The notes under the pieces are model-generated. The model made no database searches and was not told the DNA's origin. It saw only the letters and a list, made by a program, of their open reading frames with translations. From positions 1 through 45,123 of the IMG/VR virus record IMGVR_UViG_3300022744_000045: a stretch of 45,123 nucleotides of DNA. One strand, given 5' to 3'. A program made the translations under genes and the position numbers. This document shows positions 1 to 45,123 of the stretch, in pieces. How positions within the stretch are numbered: position 1 is the first letter of the stretch; every line of letters starts with the position of its first letter. This DNA is from a virus.

Positions 1-282
1 ATTGGTATTCCCCCAGGTTTCATTGCGCCTGAGCGCGTTTAAAAGGGTCTGATTTTCCCGGGCCAATTTGCGGGCCTCAGAGGCTTTGCGGGCCTCTCGG
101 GCTACCAGCACCTTCCGGTCGTATTCTGAGCGCTTGTAGGCCTGATTCTGGGCCTCGGTGACGGCTTCTAGCTGAGTGCGCAGAGCAGTTTCCCGCTCAA
201 CGCCTCGGGTGTATAGGTAACCCAAGCCGGTTAAGGCAAGGGCTACCACCACCAAAGCGATGATAGTAGCTCTTAGGGTCAT
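1..282 (-). CDS. Inner-membrane spanin (Rz-like), left-arm allele, 3' end beyond the window edge
   Basis: This is the N-terminal 94 residues of an i-spanin, which disrupts the outer membrane at the last step of lysis. It begins with a short hydrophobic helix (residues about 4-24, rich in Ile, Leu and Val). A long charged coiled-coil stretch rich in Glu, Arg, Lys and Ala follows, the usual Rz layout. The ATG at 282 overlaps the stop of the upstream 51-aa gene (ATGA). The first 126 bases of the window, coding the distal coiled coil, are identical to 43760-43885 in the right-arm spanin, so the missing C-terminus is probably the one at 43655-43759. The membrane-helix half differs clearly from the right-arm allele (MTLRATII versus MNRIALSL). 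Family assignment rests on architecture and position. Confidence 0.8.
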   Translation of the reverse strand, partial: MTLRATIIALVVVALALTGLGYLYTRGVERETALRTQLEAVTEAQNQAYKRSEYDRKVLVAREARKASEARKLARENQTLLNALRRNETWGNTN

Positions 283-434
283 GCTCGTACGGGGTTACCG
301 TCCTCGTCGTATACAGGGTGGGTGTTATTAGATAGTTCAACCCCATCCTCTCTAGTCGTGCGTTCTGATACCCAACGGATACCAGACTGCACGAACTCGA
401 CTACCGAATAAGTAGCCTTGAGTTCGTTAGCCAT
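279..434 (-). CDS. 51-aa hypothetical protein between fibre-like protein and spanin
   Basis: I translated this small gene directly. It starts MANELKATYSVVEF and ends GNPVRA, 51 residues, acidic in the second half and with no membrane segment. The ATG at 434 is preceded by a good TAAGGAG site that overlaps the stop region of the 721-aa gene, and its TGA overlaps the spanin ATG. This tight coupling supports it as a real gene. It exists only in the left copy of the duplicated locus; the right copy runs straight from the spike-base-like gene to the spanin. I do not recognise the family. A role linked to the neighbouring fibre-like protein is possible from position only. Confidence 0.65.
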   Translation of the reverse strand: MANELKATYSVVEFVQSGIRWVSERTTREDGVELSNNTHPVYDEDGNPVRA

Positions 435-443
435 ACCAACTCC

Positions 444-2609
444 TTAGATGTAAGTCAGGTGAATCTGAGCACCAGCAGTAACTACAGTGGTGTCAGTTGC
501 GGCAGGAAGCGCCGTTACTGCGATAGCAATACCAGTGGCAAACCTTGCGCCTACGCGGCCCAGTTCCAGTGCCAAGGTACCACCAGCAACAATAGTGTAT
601 GTACGCAGGGGAATGTCCGTACCAACGGTAGGAGCAGTCGCCTTGTTGTACAGCTTAACACTGATAGACGCAGCGGTCAGGTTGCTGACGTTCAACTCGT
701 ACACGTTACCAGCAGTTGCCTTGATAGCCGCAGCGTTGGTCGATGCGGCCGTAACTACGGAGTAGCTAGCTGGTGCGATCAAGTTAGTCTCGGTCATGTT
801 AGCTGTAACTGTAGTTACACCACCAGCGACCATGTTGACTGGAATAGCCAGATCAGCACGGGATGTGCCCTGACCGCGGATACCCATGATGCTTTCGCTC
901 CATGTGGGTACGTACAGGTCATGACTACGCAGGGTTGGGCGCAGGATTACGCTACCCCCACAGTTCGTGCTTGCCAGCGTAGTAAACGCAGGAGTTACAC
1001 GGCTCTGGAAGATGTTGTAGATGGGCTTCAGCACTAGCGTAGTAGTGCTAATGTGGGCAACTTCCCATGCACCGTCCATACCAAGGTCAGCACCAGTCAG
1101 GTCAACCCGGACACCGTGGAGTTCCACGTAGTCTCCGATGTTAAGCCCAGACCATGCAGCGTTGCCTATAAGGTCAAGCCAACTAGCACCATCAGTAACC
1201 CGCGACACAGCAGAGTTGATTACCTGCCCGATAATACCGGGTTGGTCTTTGCTACCATTTTGTAGGATAACCGAGCCGCCGTAGCTGGTAGCAATAGCAG
1301 CGGAACCCCACGCAATCGTGATCTGCTTCAGACCTTCGTTGATTGCAGTGATTGCCACTCCTGTTGCGCTATTGGCAAAGTTAGTCTGATCGCGCACACC
1401 ACGCAGGGTAACGTAGTTACCGACCTGCAAGCCAGCGACTGAGGGTGCTACGTCCAGCGTTACAGCAGTCACGTTACTTGCAGCAGCGTGAGTAGCAGAC
1501 ACAACCTTGGCCACGGGGCGGGTCATGCTGATAGGTTTGTACAACCGGAAGCGTGGCAACAACTGAGCGCCAGTGGCAGGCTTTACGCTGGTGCGTGGAA
1601 CGTCCCGCGAGATCCATGCCGTCATAGACTGCTCGGCCTTGTCCAACGCAACGGATGCGCCGTAGGTACACTCAAGCATGAAGCGAGTGCTAGCACGAAT
1701 CTCAGCCTGTCCCCACGCAGCGCCGGCGACGTATGTTGGGGCTGTGGAGCCAATGGTTACGCGGTGGTCGCCCAATAGGGCGCCGGATACTTGGTTGTCG
1801 TCGCCGCCAAAGATACCTACAACAGCAGCGCTAGTAGCTGTAGTGCCAGTCAGGCGCAGGCCGAATGCGTTACGCGCACCGGAGAAGTTGTTATAGAAGT
1901 TGACCTTAGCCGTACCAAGGGTAGGAGTAGTCACACCCGAAGCAGGAGATACCAGTGACGGAAGAGCAGATTCATCAGAGAAACCAACGGCAATGGTCTT
2001 GCGGTCAGGGCTGATGTAGTTAATGCAGGCGTTGGGGTAATTGAATCGAGAGTCAACAAGCCCGGTGATGTTAATCCAGTCACCAGCAAACACAGTTTGG
2101 TTAGAGCCAACAGCGGGGAGGGCGGTCTCCAGCAGCATATGCATCACAGTACCAGCAGTGGTAGTGTTGGTAGCGCCTAGCACAGCACTCGACTGGTAGT
2201 AGCTCACGATGTTGATCGGAGTGGGGATAGTATCGGGGCCAAGAATAGGGTCGTTGGCAAACAGGCTGGCCGTAGCAAAGCTGATGCCGGTACGCACAAA
2301 GCTAGCCGCGATCTCCATAGCGCAGGGCTGGATGACCGGACGCTTAGAGTTGACAATGAAGCTCTCACCCACAGTCAGTGGGGAAGCAGACAGGGCAGTG
2401 ATGGTCTGACCATTGAGACCGGCCACAGTAGCGACAAAGTCGCCACCTGCCGTGTTAACACCAGAGAAGTTGCCCCATTCCGCCAGCAAGGCGGCAGCGT
2501 CCTCGTTGTCTGGGATGGCAGAAGATACCGCACCAGCAGTATACAGCGCACCATCATTGGTAGCTCGAAGAGAGGTAGCCTTACCCTGCGGGTTCAGTAC
2601 GACGGTCAT
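444..2609 (-). CDS. 721-aa putative tail fibre/virion surface protein
   Basis: This is a large Ala/Thr/Val/Gly-rich protein with low Lys and the beta-rich look of phage fibres or surface decorations. The N-terminus (MTVVLNPQGKATSLRATNDG) resembles the start of phage structural proteins. The last 85 residues (YELNVSNLTAA through GARFATGIAIAVTAL to LTYI) resemble a beta-sandwich often found at the C-terminus of phage structural proteins. The ATG at 2609 has an AAAGGA site 5 bases upstream, and the gene begins 10 bases after the lysozyme stop. It sits between lysozyme and spanin, where the alternative right-arm version carries only a 79-aa spike-base-like gene. It is therefore probably an exchangeable host-range or decoration module. 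The exact function (fibre, spike or capsid decoration) is inference. Confidence 0.6.
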   Translation of the reverse strand: MTVVLNPQGKATSLRATNDGALYTAGAVSSAIPDNEDAAALLAEWGNFSGVNTAGGDFVATVAGLNGQTITALSASPLTVGESFIVNSKRPVIQPCAMEIAASFVRTGISFATASLFANDPILGPDTIPTPINIVSYYQSSAVLGATNTTTAGTVMHMLLETALPAVGSNQTVFAGDWINITGLVDSRFNYPNACINYISPDRKTIAVGFSDESALPSLVSPASGVTTPTLGTAKVNFYNNFSGARNAFGLRLTGTTATSAAVVGIFGGDDNQVSGALLGDHRVTIGSTAPTYVAGAAWGQAEIRASTRFMLECTYGASVALDKAEQSMTAWISRDVPRTSVKPATGAQLLPRFRLYKPISMTRPVAKVVSATHAAASNVTAVTLDVAPSVAGLQVGNYVTLRGVRDQTNFANSATGVAITAINEGLKQITIAWGSAAIATSYGGSVILQNGSKDQPGIIGQVINSAVSRVTDGASWLDLIGNAAWSGLNIGDYVELHGVRVDLTGADLGMDGAWEVAHISTTTLVLKPIYNIFQSRVTPAFTTLASTNCGGSVILRPTLRSHDLYVPTWSESIMGIRGQGTSRADLAIPVNMVAGGVTTVTANMTETNLIAPASYSVVTAASTNAAAIKATAGNVYELNVSNLTAASISVKLYNKATAPTVGTDIPLRTYTIVAGGTLALELGRVGARFATGIAIAVTALPAATDTTVVTAGAQIHLTYI

Positions 2610-2618
2610 AGAAATCCT

Positions 2619-3101
2619 TTAGGGCTTACAGCCCGGTTCAAATTTAGCACGCTCGTTAGCACGACGCTTAACGAGTCCCTTGTAGATCACGCCGTTGTCG
2701 TACACCCAGCGGTCGAACTGGGCGGCAGCACCGAAGCAGTCACCGGCGTTGAGCTTACGGAGCAGAGTGCTATTAGCTAGCTGCTTCTCGCCCAGGTTAA
2801 AGGTGAAAGACACAAGTGCGTCGTACTGGCCCTGGGTAACTGGCACGGTGACGTGGCGCTTGACGGCCGCCTCCGCGTGCCGTACGTCCTGCTTGAGCAA
2901 GAAGTCGCACGTTGCGTCAGATAAGCGCTGGCCCATCTTGGCTGTAGCCGTGTGCCCATAACAGACGGTGACAACGTTGCCGGTGTCGAGGTATGCCGTG
3001 TTGCGCTTGCCCTCGTACGTCTGGATGCCGACGAACCCAGCCAAGCTGAGGCTGAGAACGCCAGCGGCCAGCTTAACTTCTAGGTTATCTGGCCCTGCCA
3101 T
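2619..3101 (-). CDS. Endolysin, GH24 lysozyme with N-terminal signal-anchor-like helix (left copy)
   Basis: This 160-aa glycoside hydrolase family 24 lysozyme cleaves the MurNAc-GlcNAc bond of peptidoglycan. The T4-lysozyme catalytic triad spacing is visible: Glu30 (TYEGKRN), Asp39 (AYLDTG) and Thr45 (VVTVCYGHT), matching E11/D20/T26 of T4 in spacing. Residues about 11-27 are hydrophobic and weakly polar (Ala, Gly, Ser, Leu), as in signal-anchor-release endolysins of the P1 Lyz type, so export without holin lesions is plausible. The start overlaps the stop of the upstream SwmB-like gene (TAATG). A second, diverged copy lies at 44282-44761, with differences mainly in the first 12 residues and scattered substitutions. 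Confidence 0.9.
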   Translation of the reverse strand: MAGPDNLEVKLAAGVLSLSLAGFVGIQTYEGKRNTAYLDTGNVVTVCYGHTATAKMGQRLSDATCDFLLKQDVRHAEAAVKRHVTVPVTQGQYDALVSFTFNLGEKQLANSTLLRKLNAGDCFGAAAQFDRWVYDNGVIYKGLVKRRANERAKFEPGCKP

Positions 3102-3604
3102 TACGCGATGCCGTTGGTCACGCTGGTTGCGGTGATCGAGGCAACGTAGTTGTTGGACGCGTCCTGCAAGCGCTCTGCCACAGGGGTGGGTTGCGTGTAT
3201 GCCACGGTAACAGCCCCGGCCACGAAGTTAGACGTGAAGTCCAGGTGCACGAACGGCCCGTCAACGGTAACCTTGGACACGGTTTTGACCTGACCGCCAA
3301 CGGTAAATGCAGCGGGCAGTGGCACATTGGCGGCGCCCAGGCCCTCAGAGAACACCAGCGTGATGCGCTTGGGGGCAAGGGCCGTGATGGCTGCGCTTAC
3401 GAAGGTAGGCACAGTGGTCTCGACAAAGCTGGCGATGGCCGAAGAACAGGCGTCAAAGAAGTCCTTGAGGGCTTTGGCGTTGCGGGCTTTGCCAGCGTTA
3501 CGGCCAGCATTGATCTCCACAGCGGAGATAGCATTGGCGGCTTCGAGTCGGAGGCAGATGCCATTAGACAGCAGGCCGGGAGATGGGAGAGTTGCTACAC
3601 GCAT
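3101..3604 (-). CDS. Putative structural protein with SwmB-like Ig fold (left copy)
   Basis: This 167-aa protein begins MRVATLPSPG, has an Ala-rich helical N-terminal half, then a beta-rich C-terminal domain. That domain (roughly residues 75-165) contains ITLVFSEGL, VTVAYTQP and LQDASNNYVASI. These strands match the pattern of SwmB/Ig-like adhesion domains (a VxLxYTxP strand followed by LQDxxGNxV). The ATG at 3604 has an AAGGA site. It lies between the large terminase and lysozyme genes. A virion or surface-attachment role is inferred from the fold and not shown. The same gene is repeated, truncated at the window edge, at 44761-45123. Confidence 0.55.
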   Translation of the reverse strand: MRVATLPSPGLLSNGICLRLEAANAISAVEINAGRNAGKARNAKALKDFFDACSSAIASFVETTVPTFVSAAITALAPKRITLVFSEGLGAANVPLPAAFTVGGQVKTVSKVTVDGPFVHLDFTSNFVAGAVTVAYTQPTPVAERLQDASNNYVASITATSVTNGIA

Positions 3605-3629
3605 GGTGGTTCCTTGTTAGGCGGTCGAT

Positions 3630-5411
3630 TTAACGACGGCGCTTGAGCATAGACGCAGCCTTTGGTTTTACTGCTCTATACCGGTTGTACCCAAGTGGGT
3701 CTGAGATAGCCTCGGCATGTGCCTTAGCTGCGAGTGCTGCCAGCTTTTGTTGCTGGTCGAGTGCAAGGGACTCGGTGAAATGACGCACCAAGCCCTCAAC
3801 TGCATCAAGCCGGTCGTCATGCACGAGGGCATTACGGGTCAGGCTGATCTTGCTGAGTTGATAGAAGAAACTGTACGTCAGGCGCAGTGCCGGTGCGTAT
3901 AAGTTACTGGTCTCAAGGTCGTGCCTCACGGCAGCCTCTGTAACGATCAAGCTCCCGCGCCCCATTACGGGCTCAAGGGTCTTGATAATGCGGGCCTCTT
4001 TCTGGCCGCTAACGAGATCGTCCTCAATGCCCACGCTTGGGCACTTGGCACGCAGGATGGGCGTGAACACAGCACGGAATGCACCGAAGCCCATGTTCTT
4101 CTCGATCTTTACCACCATCGGCCCATGCCCTAGGCGCTCGAATGGTGCTATCCGGTCTGCCAGTGTGCCCAGCTTGTCGGGGTCGTAGCCACCCGGGATG
4201 CCCCCGACAGCCAGTAAATACACGTTGCCGTTCAAGAAGCCACCGATGGCGTAGGCCGTTTCGTCAGCGTTCTGTCCACCGCCAGCCGGGTCGATGTACG
4301 CCACAACGGATTGCAGCTTGCCGACCTCGCGGCTAATGTCGTGAGGCAGGGAGAGCTTGAATGCGTGCTCGTGGGCCGAGTAGTCCTTGAGGTTCGCCGC
4401 AGTCATGCCGCGTACCAGCGTCAGGGGGAAGTGCTCCCCGGCCTCTATCACAGTGAGGCGCTCGGGCTTGAGTGGGTACTTCAGCGCGTCCATCATGGCC
4501 GTGTTCAGCATGTGCTGAAGCTGGAAGTACGCCGTACCTTGGTCGCGCTCTTTCTTCTGGAGGGTTTCCTCGTCCAGCAGCACGGGGTCAACGGGCTGGC
4601 CCTGGTCTCCCAGCAGGCCCCCGCCCACGGCCAATGCCGGGTTGGCTGCAAGGCGCGAGGCGATCAGCGGGGCTAGGTTGGCACCGTAGTGCTCTCGCTG
4701 CTTGGCTGTTGGGTACCGCCCCGGCCAGATACGTGTTACAACTCCCCGCGCAGGCAGGCTGTTGTAGATGGACTCCATCGTCTGCGGCGTGCCCAGCCAG
4801 ATAATGCGCCCACTCTGGTTGATAGACGTAAAGTCTTTGGTCAGGTGTAGCAGCTTAGCCCGCTGTGTTGGGGTAGCCGAGTTCTTGCTGGACTCAATGT
4901 CGTCAGGGATTAGCAAGTCAGCACGGCGGCCCTGCAAGTTGGCGTCAATACCAATACAGTCAACCGACGCGGACTTGTCGATACCCTTCAGGCTGTGGTG
5001 AATGTCGAAGCCCTCGACAGACGTGCGGTCTCCGGCCGCCTTGTCAGGCCGCATGCACTCAAGCACGTCCATATTCATGATGATACGAACGATCAGCGTG
5101 GCAATGTCCGTCGCTTGGTCACCGCCAGCGGACACGATCAGCACTCGGCCAGAGGGGCTATGCAGCAAGTACCACACGGCAAATGCAGCCGCAATCGTGG
5201 TCTTGGCCTGTGAGCGCTGCGCTTGTACCATGAGGTACTGCGGGCCGTAGGCAATGTAGCCGCCAATGTCCTTCTGAATCTCCGTGGTAGAGAAGCCTAG
5301 CTCGTCCATCACGTCCTCAAGGAACGGGATGAAGGACGAGTAGTGCTGCTGCACCATTTCTAGGCGCTCCCACCGGGCCTTGGCCGCGTCGGAAGTCTCC
5401 CGCGCTTTCAT
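3630..5411 (-). CDS. Terminase large subunit
   Basis: This 593-aa DNA-packaging motor ATPase/nuclease is of the T7 gp19 type. The ATPase domain shows a variant Walker A around residues 65-72 (QRSQAKTT, Lys70) and a Walker B-like LLIPDDIE (Asp170, Asp171, Glu173), followed by the coupling motif WLGTPQ near 205-210. The C-terminal nuclease domain carries YIDPAGGG (Asp374), an ADETA stretch (Asp383) and a late HDDRLDA motif, matching the RNase-H-like metal centre of terminases. The ATG at 5411 overlaps the stop of the small-terminase gene (ATGA). The length is close to that of T7-like large terminases. Confidence 0.95.
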   Translation of the reverse strand: MKARETSDAAKARWERLEMVQQHYSSFIPFLEDVMDELGFSTTEIQKDIGGYIAYGPQYLMVQAQRSQAKTTIAAAFAVWYLLHSPSGRVLIVSAGGDQATDIATLIVRIIMNMDVLECMRPDKAAGDRTSVEGFDIHHSLKGIDKSASVDCIGIDANLQGRRADLLIPDDIESSKNSATPTQRAKLLHLTKDFTSINQSGRIIWLGTPQTMESIYNSLPARGVVTRIWPGRYPTAKQREHYGANLAPLIASRLAANPALAVGGGLLGDQGQPVDPVLLDEETLQKKERDQGTAYFQLQHMLNTAMMDALKYPLKPERLTVIEAGEHFPLTLVRGMTAANLKDYSAHEHAFKLSLPHDISREVGKLQSVVAYIDPAGGGQNADETAYAIGGFLNGNVYLLAVGGIPGGYDPDKLGTLADRIAPFERLGHGPMVVKIEKNMGFGAFRAVFTPILRAKCPSVGIEDDLVSGQKEARIIKTLEPVMGRGSLIVTEAAVRHDLETSNLYAPALRLTYSFFYQLSKISLTRNALVHDDRLDAVEGLVRHFTESLALDQQQKLAALAAKAHAEAISDPLGYNRYRAVKPKAASMLKRRR

Positions 5412-5713
5412 TGAATGAAGCCCTGCGAGGTAGCGAAGCGCTCAGCCGCGTCATCGAGAGCAGCCTGTGGCAACTTCTTCTTACGGCGGGCGCTCAGTGC
5501 ATCGCTCAGTTCCCGCAGCGCGGCGTTATCCGTAGCGTCAGCGGTGATGTTGTTGTTCTTGAGGAAGGCGATAGCCGCACCCAACAGCGCAGGGCTGGGG
5601 CGAACGGTCTTTGTGCCTTCGTCGGTCTGCTCTTCGTAGCCCACCACCTGCTCTTGCAGGGCGACAGCTACTGCTTGGTGCAGTTCGCCAAGCTGTTTAT
5701 CACTTGCGGCCAT
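5408..5713 (-). CDS. Terminase small subunit
   Basis: This 101-aa protein begins MAASDKQLGELHQAV. I chose the ATG at 5713 because it has a strong AAAGGAC site 5 bases upstream; a longer reading to 5782 would only add out-of-context residues over the holin gene. The sequence is helical and charged, with a central patch PSPALLGAAIAFLKNNNI and a C-terminal basic stretch (SARRKKKLPQ). This resembles T7-group small terminases, which bind DNA and load the large subunit. It sits directly before the large subunit with an ATGA overlap and after the holin. This holin/small/large terminase order is typical of T7-like phages. Confidence 0.85.
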   Translation of the reverse strand: MAASDKQLGELHQAVAVALQEQVVGYEEQTDEGTKTVRPSPALLGAAIAFLKNNNITADATDNAALRELSDALSARRKKKLPQAALDDAAERFATSQGFIQ

Positions 5714-5897
5714 TACGTCCTTTCCGTGGCAGGTACCACTTGTCCCGCAGCAGGAAGTAAAACTGAAAGAGAGTGTACACAATAGTGGTCAGGAGAACCC
5801 AGTCAGAGAGGGCCACCCCGAACAGGGTAAGCCCGCCGACCGTGAGCGTGGGTGCAGCACGGGCCGCTTCGTTAACAATGTCGGAGTGGTTGCTCAT
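5700..5897 (-). CDS. Class II holin (T7 gp17.5-like)
   Basis: This is a 65-aa small membrane protein. Two hydrophobic segments are visible (about residues 15-32 and 36-50, including LTVGGLTLFGVALSDWVLLTTIVYTLFQFYFLL), followed by a positively charged tail (RDKWYLPRKGRNGRK). Its length and topology match the 67-aa T7 holin gp17.5, which forms inner-membrane lesions at lysis. It overlaps the start of the small terminase by 14 bases and follows the tail fibre gene, the position of gp17.5 in T7. The ribosome site before the ATG is weak. Confidence 0.88.
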   Translation of the reverse strand: MSNHSDIVNEAARAAPTLTVGGLTLFGVALSDWVLLTTIVYTLFQFYFLLRDKWYLPRKGRNGRK

Positions 5898-5899
5898 GG

Positions 5900-7570
5900 T
5901 TAGATTACCTTGCGGTCTTGCAAGGCTTTAACGAGGGTGGAAACGATGGCATAGAGAGGGCGCAGTACGACCTCAATCTGCTGGGGTGTTGGGTTGGTAC
6001 TCAGGTATGCGCGGATTACCCCGTCAGTGCAGAGGTTATCAATGTCCAGCGTGGTGCTATCAGTGAAAGCACGCGCTTGGCTACCTCCCCAGTTGTACAG
6101 GTTGTAGTATGAGCCCAGGCCAGTGCCCAACGTCACGCTTGCACTGGGCAAAGTGATGCCATTGGTGAAGGACTTGACCCCGCCAACCGTCTGGTTAGTG
6201 GTAAGGTCAACGTACGAGCCACCTCCGCCAGCGGCGAGGTCGGTATCAGCGCCGCCAGAGAGGTTGATGTACCCACGGTTAGCGCCGTTGCCGTAAAACT
6301 GCAATCGGCCGTTAGCGCTGTTGTAGCGCATCTTGTACTGGCTGGTGGCATCGAGTGAAATCCACTCGTTCGCCTTAATCCGCAGGGCGCTGTCGCTGTT
6401 CGTGGACTGCGATAGGTCAATCCCCACCGTGTAGCTGCCAGTGTGGTAGATGCCGCGCACGCCACTGGCCGTATTGACAATGCCCGCCTGCTCGGCGCTC
6501 ATGATCTTTACGCCGTAGTGGAAAGCACCTAGGGTGTTGTTGTTCCCCTGAGCACCGATGCGCACGCCGTCGTAAGCATAGCCTTTGGGGCCTGCCGTGG
6601 GCGGGTCTGTGCGCAGAAGCTGGGCATTTCCGACCACAACGTCAAGGCCAATGCGCTGCTCGAACTCGTCAGCGCCGTTGCACCAAACGTCTACCTCGCA
6701 GCCAACGGTTCCGCCGCTTGAGCCGGTTGTCGGGTTGATCGCGGTGTCGCACACCTCAAAGCAGCCGCCCCATGTTGGGCCGGTGCTCAGCTTGTTGCCT
6801 TGGCCGTACACGCCGACGTTCTCGCCACCGCTGGCTGAGTTGTTCACGCGAGAAGTCACGCCCCACTCAAAGTTGTTCACGCCGGGCGATACCGTAGTGT
6901 CCACAAAGAGCGCGGAGTATACATGGCCCTGCGTGCCACCGACCTTGTTGGCTGTGCGGTTAAGCATTAGCGTGTGGCTGGCGTTATTCGGGGTAGTGCT
7001 GTCAATGGAGACAGTCCCTACGTTGGCCCCGGCCTCGATGGCTGTCACAACGTCGTCCGCGTTGAGCGCAACTGCGCCTGTGCGGGTGTTAAAGCTGGCA
7101 ACGCCAGCAGTGCCGCCAGTAACCGCAGCCTGCACAAACGCCGTAGTGGCGATCTGCTGGGTTGAGGTGCCTGCTGTGGCAGTTGGCGCCGTAGGTGTGC
7201 CGGTCAGCGCTGTGTTGTTCGTACCAACCGGGGTAAACCCCAAGGCGCTCACAACATCGTTGCTGTTAATGATGACGTTGCCTGTACGCGAGTTAACGCT
7301 GGCAACTCCGGCCACGCTGCCTGCAACAGCGCTCTGTACGAACGCAGTTGTGGCGATTTGAGTAGTATTGGTACCGATACTCGCCGTCGGTGCAGAGGGT
7401 GTCCCGCTAAGCACAGCGGCAGTGGGGTTGACCGGGACGAAACCCAAAGCCGTAACCACCGCTTCCTGTGTAACGGCCCCGCTACCGCCGCTGGCTGCAA
7501 GGTCTTTGAGCACAACGTCAAGCGGTTGCCCAATGTGGTCAATTTGTGAGGTGTCTGGACGTGTTCCCAT
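5900..7570 (-). CDS. Tail fibre protein with repeated stalk motif
   Basis: This 556-aa protein starts MGTRPDTSQIDHIGQPLDVV. The ATG at 7570 has an AAGGA site; a longer reading to 7606 lacks one. Near the N-terminus two copies of a fibre repeat are seen: ALGFxPVxx, then L(S/T)GTP(S/T)APTA followed by TQIATTAFVQ(S/A)AV. This repeat is common in phage tail fibres and side-tail proteins. An xxSxNxRTGxVxxNxDDVV motif also recurs. The remainder is beta-rich, and the last 40 residues (LRPLYAIVSTLVKALQDRKVI) are helical. It is the last of a row of adhesin genes before holin and terminase. Receptor binding is likely. Confidence 0.85.
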   Translation of the reverse strand: MGTRPDTSQIDHIGQPLDVVLKDLAASGGSGAVTQEAVVTALGFVPVNPTAAVLSGTPSAPTASIGTNTTQIATTAFVQSAVAGSVAGVASVNSRTGNVIINSNDVVSALGFTPVGTNNTALTGTPTAPTATAGTSTQQIATTAFVQAAVTGGTAGVASFNTRTGAVALNADDVVTAIEAGANVGTVSIDSTTPNNASHTLMLNRTANKVGGTQGHVYSALFVDTTVSPGVNNFEWGVTSRVNNSASGGENVGVYGQGNKLSTGPTWGGCFEVCDTAINPTTGSSGGTVGCEVDVWCNGADEFEQRIGLDVVVGNAQLLRTDPPTAGPKGYAYDGVRIGAQGNNNTLGAFHYGVKIMSAEQAGIVNTASGVRGIYHTGSYTVGIDLSQSTNSDSALRIKANEWISLDATSQYKMRYNSANGRLQFYGNGANRGYINLSGGADTDLAAGGGGSYVDLTTNQTVGGVKSFTNGITLPSASVTLGTGLGSYYNLYNWGGSQARAFTDSTTLDIDNLCTDGVIRAYLSTNPTPQQIEVVLRPLYAIVSTLVKALQDRKVI

Positions 7571-40724: not shown

Positions 40725-41179
40725 ACCAACTCCATACCAAGCTGGTGCCGGACGAAGTTAAGCTGGTGCGGCACGTGTTCGCGATTAGCCTCCCACCGCA
40801 ACGCCTGCCCTGCCGTGTCAATGGCCATGATGGTGGCCTCTGGGCTATCGTAGCCGAACTCAAGCGACACTGCATTGATGTGCTCAGCCGCAACGACTAG
40901 CTCGTCTGGCAATGTGAAGTCCCGATACATCCTAACGTGTAAGGCGTCGTGCCAAGCCCGAAAGGCGTAGTTATCTCGCTGAGACAGGTATATGGTGTTG
41001 TCAGACGCACCAGCGTACACAGGCAAAGGCTCCTCGGTGTAATACACCTGCCGTAGCGCGGGGTAGCTACTGGGGGCATCTTCTACAGCGATAAACCCTT
41101 GCGGAAGATGCAGCGCAGCCATCCGCCTGACAAAGCTCCCCAGGTTACAGCGTGCCTCTAGGAATCTATCTTCTGTCAT
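40721..41179 (-). CDS. 152-aa conserved-looking hypothetical protein with FRAWHDALH motif
   Basis: The protein starts MTEDRFLEARCNLGSFVRRM. The striking stretch is NYAFRAWHDALHVRMYRDFTLPDELVVAAEHINAV, followed by AIDTAGQALRWEANREHVPHQLNFV. The His-Asp and later Glu/His residues could form a metal site, but it does not fit the HD-phosphohydrolase pattern well. I believe related proteins exist in other podoviruses without known function. The ATG at 41179 overlaps the stop of the 55-aa membrane protein (ATGA). Confidence 0.7.
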   Translation of the reverse strand: MTEDRFLEARCNLGSFVRRMAALHLPQGFIAVEDAPSSYPALRQVYYTEEPLPVYAGASDNTIYLSQRDNYAFRAWHDALHVRMYRDFTLPDELVVAAEHINAVSLEFGYDSPEATIMAIDTAGQALRWEANREHVPHQLNFVRHQLGMELV

Positions 41180-41343
41180 GAAAACATCCCCACAATCAGC
41201 AACCCCAGCACATACAGCGCCACCATTGGCAGCACGAACGTCACCATGAATATGGCGTATACCTTAGCCGAGAAGGCCATGTCATCAAACTGGCTGGAGT
41301 GCCGCCAGTAGAACGCACGCAACTTTTCCTTGATCTTCCGCAT
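41176..41343 (-). CDS. 55-aa small membrane protein
   Basis: I translated this gene directly. It starts MRKIKEKLRAFYWRHSSQFDD and ends LLIVGMFS. A basic N-terminus is followed by about 27 hydrophobic residues (VYAIFMVTFVLPMVALYVLG onward), consistent with one long or two short membrane helices. The ATG at 41343 has an AGGAGA site, and the TGA overlaps the next ATG. It may act on the host envelope or in superinfection exclusion; this is inference from topology and early position. Confidence 0.7.
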   Translation of the reverse strand: MRKIKEKLRAFYWRHSSQFDDMAFSAKVYAIFMVTFVLPMVALYVLGLLIVGMFS

Positions 41344-41360
41344 AGGGTTCTCCTATAACA

Positions 41361-41398
41361 GTGCAAAGCGCACTAGCAAGCCCACGCTTAGCATGGGC
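41361..41398 (-). other. Double-hairpin intergenic element C
   Basis: GTGC/GCAC (41361-41373) and GCCCA/TGGGC (41380-41398) form two stems between the stop at 41412 and the ribosome site of the 55-aa gene. The sequence before it (GTAGGCTTTAG, + strand) is nearly the same as next to element B. Confidence 0.5.
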
Positions 41399-41411
41399 GA
41401 TGTGGTAGGCT

Positions 41412-41924
41412 TTAGAACGCTGCCTCGTCGATGTTAGCGGGCACCATCACCGAGGCGGGCACCTTCTCTGCCGGAATGTCAGCGATGGCCGCAACTTGCA
41501 CGAGCTTGGTATGGTCGATGCCAGCAGCAGCGGCCTTTTTCAGCAAAGCACGGACGGCGGCCTGGAAGTCAAACGCTTTCTTGATCGCATCTTCCTTGCT
41601 GTCACCGAACATGAACCAAGGCTTGGCTGTCGCGGCTTCCACATCAGTGGTGCGGGTCTTGTCATAGGACAAGGGTTGGGCATCCTTGGTGTTGAAGTCA
41701 ATGTTGCGCTTGAATTTACCGAAGGCCAAGGCCCACTCAGTGAAGGCTTGATGCTGGGTGCGGCGCAGCACATTCACCAAGCGGTTCATGGGCATGGTGT
41801 CCCCGTGCTCTTCGCAGTGCGCCAAGCAAGCAAGGCCCAACTCTTGGATGGTCGCCTCCACCTTGGCGTTCATCTTGCCCAAGGCGTCAATTTTGCTGTT
41901 CAGTTGCTTAACGGTCAAAGTCAT
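41412..41924 (-). CDS. 170-aa first early protein
   Basis: The protein starts MTLTVKQLNSKIDALGKMNAK. The ATG at 41924 has an AGGA site 6 bases upstream; the frame can extend to a TTG at 41930 but this is less likely. It is helical and Lys/Ala-rich, with WALAFGKFKRNIDFNTKDAQPLSYDK and KPWFMFGDSKEDAIKKAFDFQAAVRALLKKA. The N-terminal helical part resembles a nucleoid- or DNA-associated protein, but no family can be named. As the first credible gene after the promoter array, it may be an abundant host-takeover protein. Confidence 0.72.
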   Translation of the reverse strand: MTLTVKQLNSKIDALGKMNAKVEATIQELGLACLAHCEEHGDTMPMNRLVNVLRRTQHQAFTEWALAFGKFKRNIDFNTKDAQPLSYDKTRTTDVEAATAKPWFMFGDSKEDAIKKAFDFQAAVRALLKKAAAAGIDHTKLVQVAAIADIPAEKVPASVMVPANIDEAAF

Positions 41925-41962
41925 AATCAATCCTAATAGATGCGCTAGGAATGTCTAGCTAA

Positions 41963-42007
41963 CAACACCATAAGTCATGGTGTTGATAGATAGACACTAA
42001 GTCTATC
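41963..42007 (-). other. Two strong hairpins in the early leader
   Basis: CAACACCAT/ATGGTGTTG with a 5-base loop (41963-41985) is followed by GATAGAC/GTCTATC with a 5-base loop (41989-42007). Both are perfect. They lie in the 5' leader of the first early gene, downstream of all sigma70-like promoters, and could stabilise the mRNA or serve as processing sites. Confidence 0.7.
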
Positions 42008-42323
42008 CGACAGTGACTACCATATAACCCAACTCGGGTATTCGTAGCAAGCATTCCACACTAAACCATGCTGCAAGCGTTATCCTAGCGCACCACCACA
42101 AGGCGAACCTAGGGCAGCTTGATAGGGCTAACAGCATGTGAGATAGGCGCACACTACACCTAGCGTCACTGTCTCCACTCGGGCATAAACGTACTCGGGC
42201 CATGGCTTGCCACTCTTCATACGTCATCAAAGCCGTCTCACTAACGCAAGGCGAGGCTGTGGCGCTTAACACAATCCACACCTAACCCGGCGTTAGCCGA
42301 TACTTCACAGCATCATGACCGAT
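42008..42323. other. Early leader region without a convincing gene
   Basis: This stretch between the promoter array and the first early gene has one minus-strand reading (42003-42227, beginning MTYEEWQAMARV) with no good ribosome site and a Cys/Trp-rich composition unlike its neighbours. I see no other coding signal. It is probably an untranslated leader of about 390 bases, or it may hold a very small toxic early gene that cannot be resolved by eye. Confidence 0.5.
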
Positions 42324-42352
42324 ATTGTAGCACAGCGATATGTGCTTGTCAA
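42324..42352 (-). promoter_or_regulatory. Sigma70-type early promoter P1
   Basis: On the minus strand TTGACA (42347-42352), a 17-base spacer and TACAAT (42324-42329) form a near-consensus promoter. TGC before TACAAT gives an extended -10. It would read into the early genes. Confidence 0.85.
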
Positions 42353-42399
42353 CATCGGCCCGTTAGCTAGTAGCCTAGGCCACTTACTAACTTACCTAT

Positions 42400-42427
42400 A
42401 GTGTATCACAAACCCTAGGGCTGTCAA
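42400..42427 (-). promoter_or_regulatory. Sigma70-type early promoter P2
   Basis: TTGACA (42422-42427), a 16-base spacer and TACACT (42400-42405) with a TGA extended -10, on the minus strand. Part of the tandem array. Confidence 0.7.
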
Positions 42428-42437
42428 CACTGTCATC

Positions 42438-42459
42438 AGTAAGAGCCTTAGCTCTTACT
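42438..42459 (-). other. 9-bp perfect hairpin between P2 and P3
   Basis: AGTAAGAGC and GCTCTTACT pair around a 4-base loop. It lies at the expected 5' end of P3 transcripts, about 13 bases after the -10 box, so it could be a 5' stabilising stem or an operator-like dyad. Confidence 0.65.
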
Positions 42460-42471
42460 TAACTTGCCTCT

Positions 42472-42500
42472 ACTGTACCACAGTTTGGCTAGTTAGTCAA
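42472..42500 (-). promoter_or_regulatory. Sigma70-type early promoter P3
   Basis: TTGACT (42495-42500), a 17-base spacer and TACAGT (42472-42477) on the minus strand. The -10 lies in the repeated 17-mer ACTGTGGTACAGTAGAG shared with P4, P5 and P6. Confidence 0.82.
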
Positions 42501-42633
42501 CCTGTTTAGATTCACCTACTAGGTAACATACCCTAGGTGGCTAGTTCTTACGGCATGTAATCCAATACCTGTTCATCCGTAAGCTCTAACAACTAACTCC
42601 TGTCTTTGACACTACTGTATCAAAGGTGCCTCT

Positions 42634-42662
42634 ACTGTACCACAGTCTAGACTTACTGTCAA
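42634..42662 (-). promoter_or_regulatory. Sigma70-type early promoter P4
   Basis: TTGACA (42657-42662), a 17-base spacer and TACAGT (42634-42639) with a TGG extended -10, on the minus strand. The -10 region is the repeated ACTGTGGTACAGTAGAG. Confidence 0.85.
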
Positions 42663-42720
42663 CCCCTACCCTGTAAGGTTTGCTAGTAAGGCTTTCCTGC
42701 CTGTCTCTGCATTGGGCTCT

Positions 42721-42749
42721 ACTGTACCACAGTTCCCGTAGCCTTGCAA
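42721..42749 (-). promoter_or_regulatory. Sigma70-type early promoter P5
   Basis: TTGCAA (42744-42749), a 17-base spacer and TACAGT (42721-42726), again in the repeated -10 element. The -35 is one step weaker than in P4. Confidence 0.7.
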
Positions 42750-42812
42750 GCCCCTAGGCTCTACAGCCTCTAGGGCTACAGGCTCAGGGGCCTTGCTACT
42801 TGCTTGGGCTCT

Positions 42813-42841
42813 ACTGTACCACAGTCTGCCTTACTCTAACC
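42813..42841 (-). promoter_or_regulatory. Degenerate copy P6 of the early promoter
   Basis: The repeated -10 element ACTGTGGTACAGTAGAG is intact (TACAGT at 42813-42818), but the position expected for the -35 reads GGTTAG. It could work through its extended -10 only, or be a decaying copy. Confidence 0.4.
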
Positions 42842-43042
42842 TTACAGGCTCTCAGGCTCTCCCTCTGCTTCGCTACCCGGGCTCCTCTACCCGATCTGGC
42901 TCTAGGGCTCGGGCTCTAGGCTCTACAGGCGCTCGGGCTCTACAGGCTACAGGGCGGGCTACCCGGCAGAGACCACAGCACAGCGAACCCGGCGGAGCGG
43001 CAGCGACTCCGGGAGGCTTACCCCGGGCTTTAAGGCTACGCC
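42842..43042. repeat. GC-rich degenerate GGCTCTA repeat region
   Basis: This stretch is built from irregular repeats of GGCTCTA, GGGCTC, GGCTCTACAGG and CTAGGG, and then becomes very GC-rich. Similar units also appear between P4 and P6. T7 carries short tandem repeats next to its terminal redundancy, so a terminus-associated role is possible. No gene is evident. Confidence 0.55.
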
Positions 43043-43115
43043 TTGCAATAGATGCAGCACAGGGCTACAGCTACCGCTAAGGGCTCAGGTTCGGTGTGAG
43101 CGTATTACAGGTACC
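43043..43115 (-). promoter_or_regulatory. Candidate phage promoter/leader element, copy at the control region
   Basis: The minus-strand motif GGTACCTGTAATACG (43101-43115) is followed by GCTCA/TGAGC pairing and then TGCTGCATCTATTGCAA (43043-43059). It parallels the element at 29743-29810 over about 70 bp. It reads toward the early region. Confidence 0.5.
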
Positions 43116-43442
43116 GGATGGCGGCCATTGGAATCAATGAGACAGACAGGCCAAGCCCGTAAAGCTTTTGAGACAGATAGCCACCCACAGCCGCCCGCAC
43201 AGGCTTAGCGCTAGCCCGCAAGGTACGCCACGCGTGCCCGCAGCTAGCCCTACGCACAGGCCGCGCACCAGCCCGCTATCAAGCCGCGCACGCGCCCGTG
43301 TGTACACTCGCGCAGTCTGACGCACGCAGGCGCGAGGGCCTATGGGGGGAAACTGGGCAGGCTTAGATTGGAGGTGCCCCCTCGGAAATTCACAGCAAAA
43401 TTAGCATTTCGCTGTTCATCACAAATTGCCACCAAAATTAGA
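43116..43442. other. Gene-poor stretch, possible genome-end region
   Basis: No convincing gene is seen. The first 200 bases are GC-rich with many GCGC and GCCCGC runs. From about 43370 the composition shifts abruptly to AT-rich (TTCACAGCAAAATTAGC), and a short CACAGC...GCTGTTC dyad lies there. A minus-strand reading at 43134-43325 is Cys/Leu/Gly-rich and lacks a ribosome site. The region could hold the physical end or packaging signal of the phage. Confidence 0.4.
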
Positions 43443-43472
43443 AACTGCTTTGCTCCGTAAGCTATAGCAGTT
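43433..43472 (-). terminator. Terminator after the spanin genes
   Basis: On the minus strand AACTGCT and AGCAGTT pair (43466-43472 with 43443-43449), with an inner GCT/AGC stem, followed by TTCTAATTTT. It overlaps the stop codon of the o-spanin gene and would end the late transcript. Confidence 0.7.
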
Positions 43473-43782
43473 ACTCTCCTACCCACTTGCGCAGGTCGGC
43501 TTTGTCTTGGTTGCACCCACGGAGGGCACCCACGTAAGTCAGTAGGGTCGTTGCTATCTCGCTGTTAGTGCTTGCCTGCATTACAGGTACTGGACAGTCC
43601 GAGATTAGCGCTACGGGCGGCTTCTCCCGCACATACTCAGTACGGATAGTCGGGTTAGTCCCGCACGCCGCCAGCAGGGCCAGCAGAACCGCCCCCGTCA
43701 GGAGCCGCAGGAAGGGCCCCAGCAGCCCCGTGGAGCGCTTCTTGCACGTCAGGTGGTACATTGGTATTCCCCCAGGTTTCAT
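43471..43782 (-). CDS. Outer-membrane spanin lipoprotein (Rz1-like)
   Basis: This 103-aa reading (or 96 aa from the second ATG at 43761, MYHLTCKKRSTG) lies partly inside the i-spanin gene in another frame. It has a basic start, a hydrophobic signal (LRLLTGAVLLALLAAC) and a lipobox LAAC followed by Gly, so the mature protein would start with a lipidated Cys. This is the o-spanin that pairs with i-spanin to fuse inner and outer membranes. It is longer than lambda Rz1 (60 aa) and extends past the i-spanin stop. A terminator overlaps its stop codon. Confidence 0.88.
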   Translation of the reverse strand: MKPGGIPMYHLTCKKRSTGLLGPFLRLLTGAVLLALLAACGTNPTIRTEYVREKPPVALISDCPVPVMQASTNSEIATTLLTYVGALRGCNQDKADLRKWVGE

Positions 43783-44038
43783 TGCGCCTGAGCGCGTTTA
43801 AAAGGGTCTGATTTTCCCGGGCCAATTTGCGGGCCTCAGAGGCTTTGCGGGCCTCTCGGGCTACCAGCACCTTCCGGTCGTATTCCGCACGCTCCTGGGC
43901 CCGTTTCTGGGCATCCGTGAGGCTTTGAAGCTGGGTGCGTAGGGCGGCTGTCTCGTCCCGCTCGTGGGCGTACAGGGCACCGAGGCCGAGCATTAGGCAC
44001 ACGGAGACGAGGGCGAGAGATAAGGCTATCCTGTTCAT
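43655..44038 (-). CDS. Inner-membrane spanin (Rz-like), right-arm allele
   Basis: This complete 127-aa i-spanin has an N-terminal membrane helix (IALSLALVSVCLMLGLGALYA). A charged coiled coil follows (AALRTQLQSLTDAQKRAQERAEYDRKVLVAREARK), and the C-terminus is Pro/Gly-rich (GALPAAPDGGGSAGPAGG). The Rz1-like gene is embedded in its 3' half. The ATG at 44038 overlaps the stop of the spike-base-like gene (ATGA). The distal coiled coil is identical to the left-arm allele, while the membrane-anchor half differs. Confidence 0.88.
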   Translation of the reverse strand: MNRIALSLALVSVCLMLGLGALYAHERDETAALRTQLQSLTDAQKRAQERAEYDRKVLVAREARKASEARKLARENQTLLNALRRNETWGNTNVPPDVQEALHGAAGALPAAPDGGGSAGPAGGVRD

Positions 44039-44274
44039 GCTTGGCCTACAATGGCGCTAGCAGTAGTACCGGTAGCCTTCACCAAGCGAGCCCCACAGTT
44101 AAGCTGTGTGCCTGCTGGCACGTTAGAGTAGGTCACTTGTACACCAGCAGGCGTAACAATAGTCACGTTACCGGCGCTACCAACGTATAAGCTACGTGCA
44201 CTCCGGCTAATTGGGTTGGTATCGTGAGGCGTAATAGCGAAGCTCTCGCGCCCCGTGTCTGAAGTGTTTGGCAT
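44035..44274 (-). CDS. 79-aa spike-base-like protein (right arm only)
   Basis: The protein starts MPNTSDTGRESFAITPHDTNP and contains SRSARSLYVGSAGNVTIVTPAGVQVTYSNVPAGTQLNCGARLVKATGTTA. This pattern matches the small spike base protein family (RCAP_Rcc01079 type) of phages and gene-transfer agents. I chose the ATG at 44274 (AAGGA site) over a longer reading to 44403 inside the lysozyme gene. It occupies the place held in the left copy by the 721-aa and 51-aa genes, so it is probably a fibre or head-spike base used by a variant. Confidence 0.75.
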   Translation of the reverse strand: MPNTSDTGRESFAITPHDTNPISRSARSLYVGSAGNVTIVTPAGVQVTYSNVPAGTQLNCGARLVKATGTTASAIVGQA

Positions 44275-44281
44275 AGTATCC

Positions 44282-44761
44282 TTATTTACATCCTGGCTCG
44301 AACTTAGCACGCTCGTCAGCACGCCGCTTAACGAGCCCCTTGTAGATAACACCGTTGTCGTACACCCAGCGGTCGAACTGGGCGGCAGCGCCGAAGCAGT
44401 CACCGGCGTTGAGCTTACGGAGCAGGGTGCTGTTGGCTAGCTGCTTCTCGCCCAGGTTAAAGGTGAAAGACACAAGCGCGTCGTACTGGCCCTGTGTGAT
44501 CGGCACCGTAACGCGGCGCTTAACGGCCGCCTCCGCATGCCGCACGTCCTGCTTTAGCAAGTAGTCGCACGTTGCGTCAGATAAGCGCTGGCCCATCTTG
44601 GCTGTAGCCGTGTGCCCATAACAGACGGTGACAACGTTGCCGGTGTCGATGTATGCCGTGTTGCGCTTACCCTCGTGCGTCTGGATGCCGACGAACCCAG
44701 CCAAGCTGAGGCTGAGAACGCCAGCGGACAGCTTAACTTTGATGTTAGCTGGCACTGCCAT
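44282..44761 (-). CDS. Endolysin, GH24 lysozyme (right-arm copy)
   Basis: This 159-aa lysozyme is nearly the same as the left copy, with Glu30, Asp39 and Thr45 conserved. Differences cluster at the N-terminus (MAVPANIKVKLSAG versus MAGPDNLEVKLAAG), with a few scattered changes (for example TYEG to THEG, LDTG to IDTG) and no final Pro. The signal-anchor-like helix is kept. The start overlaps the SwmB-like stop. It probably represents the same locus in a second strain, not a second gene in one genome. Confidence 0.9.
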   Translation of the reverse strand: MAVPANIKVKLSAGVLSLSLAGFVGIQTHEGKRNTAYIDTGNVVTVCYGHTATAKMGQRLSDATCDYLLKQDVRHAEAAVKRRVTVPITQGQYDALVSFTFNLGEKQLANSTLLRKLNAGDCFGAAAQFDRWVYDNGVIYKGLVKRRADERAKFEPGCK

Positions 44762-45123
44762 TACGCGATGACGTTGATCACGCTGGTTGCGGTGATCGAG
44801 GCAACGTAGTTGTTGGACGCGTCCTGCAAGCGCTCTGCCACAGGGGTGGGTTGCGTGTATGCCACGGTAACAGCCCCGGCCACGAAGTTAGACGTAAAGT
44901 CCAGGTGCACGAACGGCCCGTCAATGGTAACCTTGGACACGGTTTTGACCTGACCGCCAACGGTAAATGCAGCGGGCAGTGGCACATGGGCGGCGTCCAG
45001 GCCCTCAGAGAACACCAGCGTGATGCGCTTGGGGGCAAGGGCCGTGATGGCTGCGCTTACGAAGGTAGGCACAGTGGTCTCGACAAAGCTGGCGATGGCC
45101 GAAGAACAGGCGTCAAAGAAGTC
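44761..45123 (-). CDS. SwmB-like structural protein, right-arm copy, 5' end beyond the window
   Basis: This is the C-terminal 120 residues of the same protein as at 3101-3604. It aligns base for base with an offset of 41660, so its start would lie near 45264, outside the window. Changes include GLGAAN to GLDAAH, VTVDG to VTIDG and a SVINVIA end. The last 127 bases are identical to 3337-3463. An in-frame internal ATG at 45072 should not be read as its start. Confidence 0.6.
   Translation of the reverse strand, partial: DFFDACSSAIASFVETTVPTFVSAAITALAPKRITLVFSEGLDAAHVPLPAAFTVGGQVKTVSKVTIDGPFVHLDFTSNFVAGAVTVAYTQPTPVAERLQDASNNYVASITATSVINVIA

Follow-up and report, generated by a model that had tools for sequence, protein, structure and literature searches.

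The two ends of the virus record analyzed here are very probably two strain alleles of one lysis segment, laid out along a single circular assembly path. The window, by which we mean the whole IMG/VR virus record (45,123 bases), would represent one walk round a circularized de Bruijn graph of a T7-like phage population, beginning in a left arm that carries a 721-aa cargo gene and finishing past a right arm that carries a 79-aa cargo gene. Each real genome would have one arm, the two arms being alternative versions of a lysis cassette that comprises the endolysin, the cargo slot, and the start of the i-spanin gene. The contig ends would be graph junctions common to both alleles and not physical termini, a terminal repeat, or a gene duplication, and the assembler presumably halted where the next edge already belonged to the path. 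The record is an ordinary assembly artifact of a known kind that exposes two real alleles, both of which probably came from one sample.

When the window was compared with itself, positions 1 to 126 were identical to 43760 to 43885, splitting at 127 (T) versus 43886 (C), and positions 44997 to 45123 were identical to 3337 to 3463 over 127 bp, with a mismatch directly before (3336 C versus 44996 T). An earlier note on this DNA had claimed anchors of 126 and 127 bp and the mismatch at 3336/44996, and both proved exact on recomparison. All repeated 40-mers in the window lay at an offset of 43759 or 41660, ruling out chance as the source of the anchor identities; no repeats of at least 40 bases were found in the window off these two registers. 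The offsets yield by simple arithmetic the two genome lengths that the note had proposed (43,759 and 41,660 bp), in which any T7-type terminal repeat is counted only once. The note had also stated that the sequences diverge at once after the 126-bp anchor. Exact identity does stop there, but homology continues beyond both anchors, which the note had missed: positions 1 to 186 are 90% identical to 43760 to 43945 (i-spanin gene), and positions 2626 to 3463 are 95% identical, without gaps, to 44286 to 45123 (endolysin and the neighboring 167-aa protein). The arm middles (187 to 2625 on the left, 43946 to 44285 on the right) are unrelated, whereas the rest of the arms is homologous.

The minus strand reads in the order TerL, 167-aa SWM-like protein, endolysin, cargo slot, i-spanin, o-spanin, a noncoding stretch with early promoters, and the early genes (Table 1). 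The left i-spanin ORF (1 to 282), which is open at the contig end, is made whole in frame by positions 43655 to 43759, giving a protein of 128 aa. Likewise, the right copy of the 167-aa gene is cut at 45123, and backbone positions 3464 to 3604 complete it in frame to full length. On its TerL side, the left arm runs into the backbone within the contig itself; its outer end would join the backbone at 43759, as indicated by the 126-bp anchor and the in-frame gene.

Table 1. Features of the window: anchors, arms, lysis cassette genes, cargo genes, and promoter array
Feature	Position	Strand	Remarks
Left anchor	1..126		Identical to 43760-43885; shared bubble entry, one base short of a 127-mer
Left arm, allele L	127..3336		Divergent i-spanin N-terminal part, 721-aa gene, endolysin, part of 167-aa gene
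721-aa gene	444..2609	-	Left arm only
Endolysin, allele L	2619..3101	-	Phage lysozyme PF00959
167-aa SWM-repeat-like protein	3101..3604	-	Right-arm copy cut by contig end
Right anchor (127 bp)	3337..3463		Identical to 44997-45123
Terminase large subunit (TerL)	3630..5411	-	Backbone next to right anchor; 77% aa identity to Curvibacter phage P26059B
Four exact ACTGTGGTACAGTAGAG copies	42468-42484, 42630-42646, 42717-42733, 42809-42825	-	0.14 expected with ≤3 mismatches
o-spanin (Rz1-like, LysC family)	43471..43782	-	Overlaps i-spanin gene; backbone common to both alleles
i-spanin (Rz-like), allele R	43655..44038	-	
Left anchor, second copy	43760..43885		Backbone-to-right-arm transition
Right arm, allele R	43886..44996		L003 has this segment alone, joined to both flanks
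79-aa gene	44035..44274	-	Right arm; PHROG 12296 "tail fiber protein," E 1.4e-15
Endolysin, allele R	44282..44761	-	PF00959; protein 100% identical in L003
Right anchor, second copy	44997..45123		Contig 3' end

An independent IMG/VR contig of 7,343 bp (IMGVR_UViG_3300021438_000194, here L003) covers positions 40881 to 45123, the right arm included, and then continues directly into 3464 to 6534, with one mismatch over the 880 bp spanning the implied right join. Relative to the window, it has one mismatch in 3464 to 6534 and one in 43725 to 45123, and beyond the 126-bp left anchor its sequence is that of the right arm rather than that of the left arm. Since L003 carries the right arm alone between both flanks, a genome with only this arm exists. 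For the left arm, no further contig turned up in IMG/VR, whether by a protein-pattern search with the 721-aa protein or by a DNA search with the left-arm spanin. L003 also differs from the window backbone at 16 bases in 43480 to 43724. In the noncoding region (41974 to 43070 versus 1094 to 2220 of L003), several indels, one of them 38 bp long, lie amid GGCTCTA-type repeats in strains that are otherwise nearly identical. The differences at 43480 to 43724 and 41.97 to 43.07 kb indicate that strain variation extends beyond the arms and that the backbone is a consensus; the suggestion that the two genomes share everything between the anchors was therefore too strong.

End overlaps of exactly 127 bp were present on 3 of the 10 near-complete related contigs (G002, G008, and G009), indicating that 127 is an assembler k in the same collection. 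The recurrence on sister contigs favors the earlier proposal that the anchor lengths reflect an assembler k-mer; the left anchor, at 126 bp, falls one base short of it. The base preceding this anchor is C both in the window (43759) and in L003, so the record is without one base of the expected 127-mer, and trimming of one base is our simplest guess. A node-centric graph convention fails to account for the 126 bp, because the opposite end has 127 bp. Like the three circular contigs, the window has an exact overlap of 127 bp, but it differs from them in that its ends overlap internal positions, each at its own offset and one over 126 bp. Because the ends match internal positions and not each other, a check for direct terminal repeats raises no flag.

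In addition, we searched 19 related records over their whole length for the endolysin, of which the window has two copies. A single copy was present in 18 of the 19 (L003 included, and 10 of these 18 being 40 to 45 kb long), and one fragment had none. The endolysin match contained an in-frame TGA at L048 and L049 (G018 and G016) and a TAG at L023 (G004); these could be alignment overrun at the gene stop, sequencing error, or real stops. Together, L003, the single-copy relatives, the 127-bp overlaps on sister contigs, and the in-frame joins support the earlier reading of a circular walk through both bubble arms.

By its gene content, the phage is T7-like, belonging to the Autographiviridae and related to Kalppathivirus: it encodes a single-subunit RNA polymerase (phrog_414; E 5.6e-269), a major head protein (phrog_267), and a T7-type TerL, all on one strand. 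Among isolates, Curvibacter phage P26059B (Kalppathivirus, NC_048055; 77% aa identity) has the closest TerL. The four ACTGTGGTACAGTAGAG copies are probably tandem early host-polymerase promoters, as in T7-like phages; the lower two score as early sigma-70-type promoters. Caulobacter phage KSC has a 191-bp terminal repeat immediately after its o-spanin gene. The promoter array and the KSC layout suggest true termini at ~42.8 to 43.5 kb; by this analogy, the physical ends would lie near 42.83 to 43.47 kb, away from the contig ends.

T7-like phages have terminal repeats. Given that this phage is T7-like in its RNA polymerase, TerL, and head protein and that KSC has a repeat of 191 bp, the contig ends could be taken for physical ends with a T7-type direct terminal repeat. 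We regard this as vanishingly improbable: the ends are not copies of each other but each match an internal site, at offsets of 43759 and 41660, and both fall within genes (i-spanin and the 167-aa gene), whereas the early promoters and the KSC layout point to ~42.8 to 43.5 kb. A single genome with a true duplication, that is, with two diverged copies of the endolysin-spanin cassette, would also yield what we observe within the genes, since intact, diverged copies with low dN/dS are likewise expected of functional paralogues. However, past the second right anchor only the same backbone can follow, where the 167-aa gene is completed, so that a molecule with both arms needs the 40-kb backbone twice. 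Moreover, L003 holds the right arm where the left arm sits, and two endolysin copies occur in 0 of 19 related records, making a duplication highly improbable. The earlier note had warned against both of these readings, and with the ends matching internal sites, the relatives single copy, and L003 carrying one arm, that warning holds.

The left arm could instead be a chimera, drawn in from a different phage via a conserved stretch and representing no allele of this one. The support for its outer join is the 126-bp anchor, neither search of IMG/VR returned a second contig with this arm, and the endolysin has a dS of 0.27 next to 0.008 in the adjoining 167-aa gene, all of which could speak for such an origin. 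Nevertheless, the arm is attached to the TerL-side backbone within the contig, its flanks match those of the right arm at 90 to 95% identity and in unchanged order, the implied left join keeps the i-spanin gene in frame, and relatives carry alternative cargo at the same slot. A chimera is thus very unlikely, and we retain the reading of two strain alleles.

Variant phage genomes are known to share long unitigs and to differ in alternative unitigs that form bubbles, which short-read assemblers cannot separate (Phables, PMC10563150). The window likewise reflects variant phage genomes with a shared backbone and alternative arms. In contrast to the bubbles described there (PMC10563150), it has both arms in one linear contig, which is over-long with duplicated ends, instead of one arm being dropped or the contig stopping early. 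A literal annotation would describe a 45-kb phage with two endolysin-spanin cassettes or odd termini, and an end-to-end repeat check would fail to recognize the genome as closed. Such over-long records can be detected, and the two alleles recovered, by looking for contig ends that match internal positions over a k-mer length. Here, the allele pair also suggests that the lysis module of this phage group contains a cargo slot.

Between the two endolysin alleles, there are 26 synonymous and 11 nonsynonymous changes (dS 0.27; dN/dS 0.11). Both alleles are intact, diverged, and under purifying selection, indicating that both arms are real alleles and not error, and both are predicted to be functional. 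In contrast, the adjoining 167-aa gene has a dS of 0.008 between arms. This difference suggests that recombination brought the cassette into a genome that was otherwise similar, although between-strain divergence is not directly measurable in a collapsed backbone.

The cargo genes of the two arms are of different kinds. The 721-aa protein of the left arm had no Pfam, PHROG, or PDB match. Its residues 473 to 716 resemble gp046 (261 aa) of phage KSC (37%), which is encoded between TerL and endolysin, and other parts resemble Arthrobacter phage proteins, one of which is annotated as a virion structural protein. Based on these similarities, the gene may be virion or adhesin cargo. AlphaFold run on the single sequence gave an unusable model (pLDDT 33). 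For the 79-aa gene of the right arm, the ORF was listed as 44035 to 44403, and we took an internal ATG as the start; a homologue, 50% identical, occupies the same slot in a related locus (L038). P26059B and KSC (Percyvirus, OQ135104) resemble the window in having TerL, a small protein, endolysin, and spanins on one strand. Unlike the window, each has one cassette per genome, with TerL 77% (P26059B) and 54% (KSC) identical to that of the window. KSC, a complete isolate, has a single order (TerL, small gene, 721-like gene, endolysin, spanins, terminal repeat), in which the cargo gene, at 261 aa, is far shorter than that of the window and precedes the endolysin.

The spacing between endolysin and i-spanin ranged from -16 to 3001 bp across 45 related loci (estimated via the o-spanin match at loci with no i-spanin match). 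The slot (loci L004 and L009 to L077) held SprT-like metallopeptidases (~20 loci), GNAT acetyltransferases (~8), tail/tail-spike or structural proteins, or nothing; these counts are based on sequence similarity of the slot ORFs to Pfam-identified members. Closely related phages differ in slot content: the TerL-side flanks of L036 and L037, in which the slot is empty, are 91 to 93% identical to that of L038, which carries 3 kb of cargo including the 79-aa homologue. This pairing parallels the two arms of the window. Such variation across relatives indicates that differences in cargo are normal for the group. On balance, we lean toward the view that the endolysin/i-spanin site serves Kalppathivirus-like phages as an active site of cargo exchange, at which near-identical phages swap whole endolysin-cargo-spanin blocks (with a 721-aa virion-like gene, a tail-fiber-family gene, a SprT-like peptidase, a GNAT, or nothing) via homologous recombination within the lysis genes on either side, and that alternative alleles coexist within a sample. 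Three further loci (L045, L053, and L055) have an extra 1.6 to 2.3 kb between TerL and the SWM-like homologue of the 167-aa gene, a possible second cargo site.
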